DNA from: Natronolimnobius baerhuensis
GTDB lineage: Archaea; Halobacteriota; Halobacteria; Halobacteriales; Natrialbaceae
Reading direction: 5' to 3'
Length of the DNA: 64,000 bases
NCBI RefSeq assembly: GCF_002177135.1
Contig: NZ_MWPH01000001.1
Location: forward strand, 992,001-1,056,000
Shown here: in pieces, positions 28,339 through 53,537 of the stretch
Layout: every line of letters begins with the position of its first letter
Position numbering within the stretch: the stretch's first letter is position 1
Notes under the pieces: model-generated
What the model was told of the DNA's origin: nothing
What the model saw: only the letters and a program-made list of their open reading frames with translations
The model's database searches: none
Translations under genes and position numbers: made by a program

Positions 28339-29334
28339 TCACTTGACCGCAGCTGCCAACTCCGGCGGAAGCCCTGGCAGCGCGTCTTTTTGCGCTTCGG
28401 AGAGGTACAGCATCCACTCCACCTTCTGGAGTAAATCCGCCCTCGAGATCCCGTCTGCCTCCCGGTCGTACTCCTCGAGAAGGAGATGCGTGGTGTTCCG
28501 GAATCGGACTCTGGAGACGGCGCTGTTGACGCCGCCGACGTAGAAGACGAATTTTGCTGTTCCCGCAGCGGGAATTCGGGGTTGTGCGACCTGCCAGTCA
28601 CCCGGAAAGAAACTGTTCCGCGAGAAGCCGAGTGACTGAGTGTAGGACTGCCCGGTATCGTCGTAGACGGTGAAATCTTCCCACGGATGGAGCACGAGAT
28701 CATAGTCGACGAGATTCGTGAGTTCGAACGCGAAGAACGGTCCGTCGAATTCGGTCGGCTCGATCACGTCGGGGTCCGACGACGTTACCCACTCGTAGCC
28801 GACGAGCGTCGCCCTGAAAAGGTCGCACTCGGCAACGACAGTCGTCGGCTCGCTCGAGTCGAACGCACTGATGGATTCGGTATATGCGTGACTCGAGATA
28901 TCGGTCCCGTCCGCGTAGGTCGCAACCAGATCCTCGGCACCCATCTCTCTGACCAGTCGCTCGAGGGTCTCGCCGTCGACCAGTTTGATGTTGAAATCGT
29001 CGGCGATGGTTTCGGCCTGGCTCGTAAACCCACTCGTCGTGACGACGACGACTTCATCAACGTTCTCGCGTTGTTTCAGCGAGGCGTACGTCTGTAGTTC
29101 AGGCCCGGAAACGGCGTTCGTCTCGGCGTATCGCTTCGCCTGGATGAGGAGCTTCTTCGGATACGGGAACGTTTTCGTGGCGACGACGTCGATCCCCTTG
29201 TCACTCGACTGGGACGTCACCTCGGTGTCCCACCCGCGACGAGACCAGAGGTCCGCAACGAAGTGCTCGAACTCGTGGCCATCCAGTTGCTGCAACGGAC
29301 GACTGACTGCTGACTTCGGGAGTCCCGTATCCAT
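28339..29334 (-). CDS. Mrr-type restriction endonuclease-like protein
   Basis: 331 residues. Residues ~15-140 form an Mrr_cat PD-(D/E)xK nuclease: GHEFEHFVADLWSRRGW, D49 in KGIDVVA, and Q65-A-K67 in LLIQAKRY. VVVTTSGFTSQAETIA and IKLVDGETL complete the fold. The C-terminal half (~165-305) is a beta-rich domain (FFAFELTNLVDYDLVLHPWEDF, FFPGDWQ, AKFVFYVGG) of unknown role. Mrr proteins cut modified foreign DNA. It lies 88 bp downstream of an HNH nuclease gene on the same strand, so the two may form a defence unit. Confidence 0.8.
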   Translation of the reverse strand: MDTGLPKSAVSRPLQQLDGHEFEHFVADLWSRRGWDTEVTSQSSDKGIDVVATKTFPYPKKLLIQAKRYAETNAVSGPELQTYASLKQRENVDEVVVVTTSGFTSQAETIADDFNIKLVDGETLERLVREMGAEDLVATYADGTDISSHAYTESISAFDSSEPTTVVAECDLFRATLVGYEWVTSSDPDVIEPTEFDGPFFAFELTNLVDYDLVLHPWEDFTVYDDTGQSYTQSLGFSRNSFFPGDWQVAQPRIPAAGTAKFVFYVGGVNSAVSRVRFRNTTHLLLEEYDREADGISRADLLQKVEWMLYLSEAQKDALPGLPPELAAAVK

Positions 29335-29422
29335 CCCGCTGTGTCCTCGTCATCGCGATAGCAAAACAGTTCGCATCGACGGAGGTTCTCGAGTGCGTTT
29401 GGGTGCCACTCGAGAACAACAC

Positions 29423-30736
29423 TTACCGATAGCGTTTGTTTCGCACGCTAGCTTCGTCTTTCAGTCGGCGGTTGAATTCGTCACCGTCGCGGCCTTCGTG
29501 CACCCGTCGATGACAGTTCGGACACAGTGCGATCACATTCTCCGGGTCGTCCGGCCCGCCGTCACTTCGGCGCGTGAGGTGGTGCACCTCGAGGAAGGGG
29601 TCGCCACTCGGGTTTCGAAACGGGGCCGCCTCCTCACAGCCCTGGCAAACGCCGTCCGCGACTCGCAGCGCGAATTTGCGGACGATATCGGATCGAGGAT
29701 AGGATCGGCTGGTGCTCGAGTTGGTCGGTGTCTCCTCGGGTTCGCCTGGTTGTGTCCCTGCTGGCGAACTCTGCGTTGCCTTCTCGAAGAGTTCTTGATC
29801 CGAGAGTGCAGTCGGTGTGGTCTCGAGTTCAACATCCGTGCCGCCGATGGGAGCCAGTTCGAACCGAAACGCGTCTCGCAGGTCGCCGTTCTCGTCGGGT
29901 AACTCCGTCCTGCGGTGGCCGACGTACTCGTACTCGCCGAGATAGGTACTGATCCAGGGCAGGTCGGTATTCTCGAACAGATGGAGGTCGTCGCCGTTTG
30001 CGTTGTGCGAGCGAATCGCTTCGTTCCCGCCGTCCATCGTCATCTCGCCTTCCGTTCCCTCGCCAGTGTAGAGGAAGGTGTCGTCCTCGAGAAACTCGTC
30101 CTGATAGCCGTAGGTGCTCCCGGCGTCGCCCGTGAAGATGAAAATGAGCGGGTGCTCGCTTGGCGTCGCAATTCCCTTGTATCGCCCGCCTTTGAGCACG
30201 TCGTGAATGAACCACCGGCTGTAGGTCTTGCCGACCTCGAACTCGCCGTTTTCGATTGGGATGAAATAGCTCTCGTCTTGTTTGGTGACCAGATTGAGGG
30301 ACTCGAGCCACCCGAGATGACGCGTGACGACATCGTTTGGGAGCACGTGATCGGGATAGGCGTCTTGGAGTTGCTCTTGAATCTCCGTGATCGTTCGATG
30401 GCCATTCGGAATCGCTCGAGCGATTTCCCGAAATCCGTCAACAGCCGTTGCGAGCCCTTCATACATCACGAGCGGTTCGTCGTGTCTCCAGAAGGCCTCG
30501 CCCTTGTTCGTTGGCTCGTAGCCCTCAGGCGTGTGCTCGAGCAGATCAATCGACTCGAGAAAAGAGATGTTTTTCGAGATAGTTGATTCCGAGCCAGCGG
30601 ACGTATTCTCAAGTAGCCAGTTGGTTAGCTCGTGTTCTGTAGGGGTTTGCCTCGAGACAAATCGAAGCGTCGAGTGAAGATTCTCAATCCGATGGTCTTT
30701 CCCGCCGAAAAATCGTTCAGCGGTCATTCGAGTCAT
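29423..30736 (-). CDS. HNH endonuclease with winged-helix N-terminus and SRA-like middle domain
   Basis: 437 residues from ATG 30736 (other starts at 30748 or 30727). Three parts: two winged-helix-like stretches (~20-150), a middle domain (~165-300) with YSRWFIHDVLKGGRYKGIA, FLYTGEGTEGEM and FENTDLPWISTYLGEYEYVGH, and a C-terminal HNH nuclease (CQGCEEAAPF, LEVHHLTRRSDGG, NVIALCPNCHRRVHEG). The middle part resembles the SRA-like domain next to HNH in McrA-type enzymes that cut modified DNA. That assignment is inference; the HNH nuclease is firm. Likely works in modification-dependent restriction with the Mrr-like gene. Confidence 0.8.
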   Translation of the reverse strand: MTRMTAERFFGGKDHRIENLHSTLRFVSRQTPTEHELTNWLLENTSAGSESTISKNISFLESIDLLEHTPEGYEPTNKGEAFWRHDEPLVMYEGLATAVDGFREIARAIPNGHRTITEIQEQLQDAYPDHVLPNDVVTRHLGWLESLNLVTKQDESYFIPIENGEFEVGKTYSRWFIHDVLKGGRYKGIATPSEHPLIFIFTGDAGSTYGYQDEFLEDDTFLYTGEGTEGEMTMDGGNEAIRSHNANGDDLHLFENTDLPWISTYLGEYEYVGHRRTELPDENGDLRDAFRFELAPIGGTDVELETTPTALSDQELFEKATQSSPAGTQPGEPEETPTNSSTSRSYPRSDIVRKFALRVADGVCQGCEEAAPFRNPSGDPFLEVHHLTRRSDGGPDDPENVIALCPNCHRRVHEGRDGDEFNRRLKDEASVRNKRYR

Positions 30737-34107: not shown

Positions 34108-34574
34108 GGGTGTCCACGCGCCCGATTGTCCCCTCGAGAGCAGTCTCCGCGCTCGAGTGACATTCGCTTAACCACTCCGCTGCGGTCGTTCGATGGGGCC
34201 GATAGCTGTGGGTCCGACGCTCGAGCGGTCGTCGGCGGTCATGTGTGTCGACACTCGAGGCGGGGCTGTCTGGGGACACCAACTGTCTCCGGGGGGCGAT
34301 CCGTCCAGAGAACAAAGCGTACGACTGGGATCGTGGCTTCTGTGGAGACACCTCTGGAGAACGGTCGTCAGACGAATGTGAGTACAGGAGGCGTACTCGC
34401 TTTCGCTGCGCGCGACTGGTAGGGCTTCAAATACCGCCTTCGACGACGATTCGCGGCGCTCACGGATTTGTTCGCGCCGAAAAATAGTGGACTCGGCGGG
34501 ATTGAGCAAACGCGAAGCGTTTGCGATGTTCGTCGAGGCCACTGCTCGAGGTGAGTGAAACGAACCGAGAGGAG
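34108..34574. other. 467-bp non-coding stretch between the coiled-coil gene and tRNA-Ala
   Basis: No convincing gene on either strand. The minus-strand frame that runs through here also reads through the tRNA and is therefore not coding. It contains one copy of the tRNA 3'-end repeat (34486-34503), so it is the likely edge of an integrated element. Confidence 0.6.
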
Positions 34575-34590
34575 TGGACTCGGCGGGATT
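34486..34590. repeat. 18-bp direct repeat of the tRNA-Ala 3' end (attachment-site-like)
   Basis: AGTGGACTCGGCGGGATT occurs at 34486-34503 and again at 34573-34590, where it is the last 16 bases of the tRNA-Ala gene plus two bases beyond. The copies are 87 bp apart, and after them the sequence differs. Duplication of a tRNA 3' end is the usual mark of integration by a tyrosine recombinase. No integrase gene is present in the window. Confidence 0.7.
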
Positions 34591-52847: not shown

Positions 52848-53537
52848 TTAGAGGTCGTCGTCGTTGTCGTCCTCGTCGTCTTCGTCGTCCTCGTCTTCGT
52901 CATCCTCGCCGTCGACCTCAGTATCCTCGAGCGTCAGGGTGACGTCCTCGTCGTCGCCGTCGATTTCGACGTCTTCCTCGGCCTCGTCGCCCTCGTATTC
53001 GGCGTGGACCGTGTACTCGCCGTCCTCGAGGTCCTCGAATTCGACTTCACCGTCCTCGTCGGTTTCGTCTTCCCAGTCTTCCTCGTCGTCCATCAGGTCG
53101 TCATCGTCGTCCTCGTCATCCTCGTCGTCTTCGTCCTCATCGTCTTCATCATCCAGTTCTTCATCGTCATCTTCGTCGTCGTCCATCTCGTCGTCTTCAT
53201 CGTCCTCGTCGGCTTCCTCGAGTTCGACGGTTGCGCCTTCGACAGCGTTGCCGTCAGCGTCTTCGACGGTGACGGTGAGCGTGTAGCCATCTTCGTCGTC
53301 CATCTCGTCATCTTCTTCGTCCTCTTCATCCTCCATCTCGTCATCTTCTTCCTCTTCTTCATCGAGTGGATCCTCTTCGTCGTCATCCTCTTCGTCGACT
53401 GCGGGATCCTCCTCTTCAGGTGGTTCATCATCGGGATCATCGCCATTGCCGTCGTCTGCACAGCCAGCCAGAACGAGCGCACTGGTTGTACCTACTGCCG
53501 CGACGAACTTGCGTCGGTTCAGTCTTTGATGGGACAT
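52848..53537 (-). CDS. Tat lipoprotein of extreme acidity with carboxypeptidase-regulatory-like domain
   Basis: 229 residues. The signal RRKFVAAVGTTSALVLAGC contains the Tat RR motif and a lipobox, so the protein is exported folded and lipid-anchored. The mature part is mostly Asp and Glu, interrupted by a beta-sandwich module (YTLTVTVEDADGNAVEGATVELEE and GEVEFEDLEDGEYTVHAEYEGD). The acidic tracts are encoded by GAC/GAG-rich repeats, seen as CGTCGT/CCTCGT on the plus strand. It may bind cations or surface polymers; function unknown. The repeats are prone to length change. Confidence 0.75.
   Translation of the reverse strand: MSHQRLNRRKFVAAVGTTSALVLAGCADDGNGDDPDDEPPEEEDPAVDEEDDDEEDPLDEEEEEDDEMEDEEDEEDDEMDDEDGYTLTVTVEDADGNAVEGATVELEEADEDDEDDEMDDDEDDDEELDDEDDEDEDDEDDEDDDDDLMDDEEDWEDETDEDGEVEFEDLEDGEYTVHAEYEGDEAEEDVEIDGDDEDVTLTLEDTEVDGEDDEDEDDEDDEDDNDDDL

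Follow-up and report, generated by a model that had tools for sequence, protein, structure and literature searches.

A haloarchaeal gene for a protein built of two winged helices, an SRA domain and an HNH nuclease domain (wH-wH-SRA-HNH) was found in the window, the 64,000-nucleotide stretch of DNA analysed here (G000:C1:992001-1056000, from a genome of 3.9 Mb). The gene probably encodes a stand-alone, NTP-independent type IV nuclease that depends on 5-methyl- or 5-hydroxymethylcytosine (5mC/5hmC), with the neighbouring Mrr-type gene being independent of it; we put the probability of this reading at roughly two in three. The favoured target, 5mC/5hmC DNA, follows from the pocket of the SRA domain and from the rarity of C5-methyltransferases in carriers of the gene, with no significant deficit of Dam-type enzymes.

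Both are real genes, which lie on the minus strand with 88 bp between them. The listed 468-aa ORF of the HNH gene, which begins at TTG 30829, is over-extended, since the orthologues aligned share a start at MTRMTAERF. The genes and the domains of their products are given in Table 1. On the far side of the HNH gene, an exact 18-nt direct repeat is present at 34486-34503 and 34573-34590, and one of its copies forms the 3' end of tRNA-Ala(GGC); the repeat looks like the trace of an attachment site beside a variable island. The segment 30899-32427 is of low GC content (about 38% in 31-32 kb) and carries genes for a 353-aa protein with a membrane anchor and for a winged-helix protein of 99 aa, the latter recurring upstream of three HNH orthologues (L061, L063 and L064). 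Elsewhere in the window, 52848-53537 on the minus strand encodes a 229-aa lipoprotein-like protein made mostly of Asp/Glu runs. The window holds 396 GATC sites, fewer than the mean of 489 in dinucleotide shuffles.

Table 1. Position of the two nuclease genes and of their predicted domains in the window.
Feature	Position	Strand	Basis
HNH gene, 437 aa, predicted wH-wH-SRA-HNH endonuclease	29423-30736	-	ATG 30736; Pfam; homologue alignment
Winged helix 1 (aa 1-86)	30479-30736	-	AF2 secondary structure; Foldseek SelB winged helices; profile matches
Winged helix 2 (aa 87-160)	30257-30478	-	AF2; Foldseek; profile matches; weak winged-helix Pfam matches
SRA domain (aa 164-300), pocket Y211, D213, Y223, T224	29837-30247	-	Profile, Pfam SAD_SRA in relatives, Foldseek
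HNH nuclease domain (aa 343-437), C364-x2-C367, EVHH 383-386, N400, C405-x2-CH409	29426-29710	-	Pfam HNH, EcoKMcrA, invariant columns
Mrr-type gene, 331 aa, neighbour, not proven partner of the HNH gene	28339-29334	-	Pfam; locus comparison
Mrr_cat PD-QxK nuclease domain (aa 14-127)	28954-29295	-	Pfam 2.5e-28; conserved D49, Q65-x-K67; Foldseek MspJI and AspBHI nuclease domains
Mrr C-terminal beta-rich domain (aa 150-295), possibly Ig-like	28450-28887	-	AF2 pLDDT uneven, about 50-85; weak Foldseek 3cfu/1lmi, E 4e-3 to 7e-3

The fold of the HNH protein was modelled with AlphaFold2 on 38 homologues (mean pLDDT 86.5, pTM 0.84), which placed a beta-rich domain at residues 164-300 and a linker of low confidence at about 328-340. 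The C-terminal domain matched Pfam HNH (4.3e-12) and EcoKMcrA (6ghc, 3e-24), and its zinc ligands and catalytic His/Asn are present, in columns that are invariant in the homologue alignment. For the middle domain, a profile of 21 relatives matched ScoMcrA (3.4e-7) and SUVH5 (0.026) in the PDB. Pfam SAD_SRA was found in 15 of these 21 relatives (best 1.8e-8), the match being weak for the window copy alone (0.13). Foldseek of the model returned ScoMcrA (8e-11), TagI (6.7e-7) and the SUVH5-mCHH DNA complex (TM 0.66 over the target), with EcoKMcrA, other SUVH proteins, AspBHI and MspJI also in the top ranks. Profile and model agree that the middle domain is a genuine SRA. The initial annotation of two adjacent genes on one strand, its HNH call and its likening of the middle domain to readers of modified bases are all upheld, and the catalytic motifs of both genes prove intact; the tandem winged helices at the N-terminus had been overlooked. 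A phosphorothioate-dependent SBD-HNH enzyme was also considered and rejected: the N-terminal half is formed by the tandem winged helices and has no sulfur-binding match, and PT-DNA_restrict reached only E 0.17 against the HNH protein, covering HNH residues alone.

The pocket of the SRA domain is strongly conserved. Y211, D213, Y223, G225 and G227 are invariant in all 38 aligned homologues. Y211 and Y223, the aromatic walls for a flipped base, are 12 residues apart and are followed by T224, as are Tyr55, Tyr67 and Thr68 in TagI, with whose pocket the YTG motif also agrees (PMC6212794). The position three residues after the first Tyr, which in TagI is the base-reading Asp58, is variable among the homologues, a point against the 5mC/5hmC reading, and an invariant Asp is found at the second. 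Going by the alignment, the canonical 5mC pocket in the wH-wH-SRA-HNH subfamily is new here. Among characterized enzymes, TagI, ScoA3IV and TbiR51I (PMC6212794) likewise join a canonical SRA pocket to a C-terminal HNH domain; the HNH protein differs from them in the two added winged helices and shares about 20% identity with them. In the PDB, the closest match across its SRA and HNH domains, in sequence as well as in fold, is ScoMcrA (5zmm, SBD-SRA-HNH), which has a sulfur-binding domain where the HNH protein has winged helices.

The distribution of the family was compared with that of DNA methyltransferases in 391 sampled Halobacteria genomes, 183 of which have a C5-methyltransferase (PF00145). 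Of the 391, 12 carry a full-length wH-wH-SRA-HNH orthologue, and most of these 12 belong to the host's family; shorter SRA-HNH proteins (about 270 aa) are commoner and reach into many bacteria. None of the 12 full-length carriers has PF00145, against 183 of 379 other genomes (Fisher p=5e-4), and for all SRA-HNH carriers the figures are 4/36 against 179/355 (p=2.6e-6). Within the host's family PF00145 was found in 6/36 genomes with any SRA gene against 39/89 (p=0.004), and in 1/13 full-length carriers against 44/112 (p=0.03); outside it the counts are 2/16 against 143 of about 273, an estimated denominator (p about 0.002). These statistics ignore the species tree and relatedness within genera; they were run on several groupings, with carrier lists drawn up by hand from match tables. 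Three controls gave no such signal: Dam-type PF02086 (9/36 SRA-HNH carriers against 137/355, p=0.15, a non-significant deficit), full-length Mrr carriers with PF00145 (3/6, p=1) and HtuIII-like carriers with PF00145 (9/20, p=1). Against the 5mC/5hmC reading, some genomes with an SRA gene do keep a C5-methyltransferase (G062, G152, G350, G375 and G411). The host genome has no PF00145, PF02086 or McrBC match and has some matches to PF01555 methyltransferases, and type I or type IIG restriction-modification genes adjoin some of the HNH orthologues. The co-distribution signal with C5-methyltransferases in the SRA-HNH subfamily is new here. With the SRA fold and the pocket it makes a modification-dependent restriction role, initially suggested for the pair, the favoured interpretation of the HNH gene.

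Dependence on 6mA, in which Gm6ATC would be recognised by the winged helices, as it is in HHPV4I and DpnI, while the SRA domain would have no more than a structural part, is an unlikely account of the enzyme. It draws on two proteins, one haloarchaeal and one from a haloarchaeal virus. HtuIII of Haloterrigena turkmenica causes mild toxicity that depends on Dam, and it nicks DNA weakly near Gm6ATC (PMC11037411). It is very probably the 496-aa ORF L092 in G180, because a Mrr-type match lies at near-identical coordinates on NC_013748 and on G180:C6 (Haloterrigena turkmenica DSM 5511). HtuIII is listed as PUA-wH-HNH (PMC11037411), and L092 was found here by profile to be wH-wH-SRA-HNH, the same domain order as in the HNH protein. 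HHPV4I, a viral SRA-wH-HNH enzyme (PMC10101028), has the same three kinds of domain and stays active after deletion of the SRA domain, which it does not need for 6mA activity. Both are counterpoints to the 5mC/5hmC reading, HtuIII-like proteins being tied to Gm6ATC and not to 5mC. HHPV4I, however, has another domain order and an unrelated winged helix: in a comparison limited to sequence-level profiles, its winged helix matched neither of those in the HNH protein significantly (best E 0.13), so that the DpnI/HHPV4I-like type appears absent from the latter. L092 has only about 25% identity to the HNH protein and a different HNH type, and HtuIII-like carriers, unlike SRA-HNH carriers, do not avoid C5-methyltransferases. 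The SRA pockets of both L092 and HHPV4I (L185) are altered, the two Tyr lying 11 apart and YIG replacing YTG, whereas the family of the HNH protein keeps the canonical pocket; this alteration may mark SRA domains that have lost 5mC reading. Besides the non-significant Dam-type deficit, two of the full-length carriers have a Dam-type methyltransferase. Since modification-dependent enzymes of haloarchaeal origin (HHPV4I, HtuIII and others) have been published before, and the SRA-HNH type IV kind is known in haloarchaea too, the suggestion of a system not yet described in this group does not hold.

The wH-wH-SRA unit is not confined to HNH nucleases. It also occurs in fusions with AAA ATPases, about 1200-1600 aa long (L077-L081), where it has 35-38% identity to the cassette of the HNH protein. 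At L081 the adjacent gene encodes McrC (PF10117, 2.3e-49), while the 451-aa partner gene at L077 has no Pfam match. These proteins thus share the wH-wH-SRA reader with the HNH protein and differ in the fused ATPase, which in L081 is of the McrBC type with its McrC partner. The re-use of the cassette on AAA (McrB-like) proteins, as deduced from domain matches, is new here. We regard it as improbable, though conceivable, that the cassette is a two-signal reader, in which the SRA domain would need 5mC while the winged helices would have to find a further signal, either a sequence motif or an adenine mark, and which would serve as a portable logic module on HNH nucleases or AAA motors.

There is a still smaller chance that the SRA domain has drifted to another base, such as 4mC or a hypermodified cytosine of haloviruses, the avoidance of C5-methyltransferases being indirect. 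SRA relatives can switch to 5hmC or g5hmC, as in PvuRts1I (cited in PMC11037411), and N4-methyltransferases occur in haloarchaea, the host's PF01555 genes included. The pocket of the HNH protein, however, is of the 5mC/5hmC type, and of the two methyltransferase families tested the avoidance is specific to the C5-methyltransferases.

That HNH and Mrr form a two-nuclease defence system, as first proposed, is very improbable: they share a strand at a distance of 88 bp and are kept at the same site in a second genome, but they adjoin only in these two genomes of one genus (G000 and G104), and outside it neither predicts the other. At the G104 locus (L061; 92% identity for HNH, 95% for Mrr) a PIN-domain gene on the opposite strand and a 66-aa ORF intervene between the two. 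In Natrialba swarupiae (L062) the HNH gene lies on the same side of the island, near the same S15, RecJ-like and tRNA-Ala(GGC) genes, and Mrr is absent. No Mrr orthologue was found within several kb of the 10 other full-length HNH loci (L062-L071), and no HNH gene near the five other full-length Mrr loci (L072-L076). Full-length Mrr coexists with C5-methyltransferases in half of its carriers, unlike HNH. One Mrr locus (L072, G104 C5) is a second copy in the sister genome, 78% identical and with no HNH neighbour.

The Mrr product itself is a PD-(D/E)xK nuclease with a beta-rich C-terminus, as had been annotated. All 20 aligned relatives keep its catalytic D49 and Q65-x-K67. Like type IV nucleases of the Mrr family, such as Haloferax volcanii Mrr, it has the Mrr_cat PD-QxK domain; it differs from them by the C-terminal domain, about 150 residues that are beta-rich in a model of moderate confidence. 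No above-threshold Pfam match was found for this domain, nor any relative in the rest of the host genome. A base-reader role for it was considered and rejected, with no SRA, PUA or sulfur-binding match and only a low-confidence Ig-like one.

In the 5mC/5hmC-dependent mechanism that we propose, the SRA domain would flip out a 5-methyl- or 5-hydroxymethylcytosine. Y211 and Y223 would grip the flipped base from both sides, and D213 would read its Watson-Crick edge. Both winged helices would bind the DNA flanking the modified base, and the HNH domain would nick or cut close by, probably as a dimer. Methylated foreign DNA would be cut, and the host's own DNA would be spared because the host has no detectable C5-cytosine methyltransferases. 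Of this scheme, the domains, their fold, the conservation of pocket and catalytic residues and the distribution were observed; substrate, dimerisation, cleavage and a part in defence are inferred. Mrr would act as an independent nuclease gene within the same variable island.

These results remove a false lead to a two-nuclease system and set the wH-wH-SRA-HNH family apart from published 6mA enzymes with the same domain types. What they usefully add to earlier knowledge is a prediction of specificity at the level of the family, together with the shared reader cassette. For this uncharacterised family of haloarchaeal restriction enzymes, the concrete prediction is a specificity for 5mC/5hmC, which suggests a barrier to methylated DNA when these archaea are transformed.
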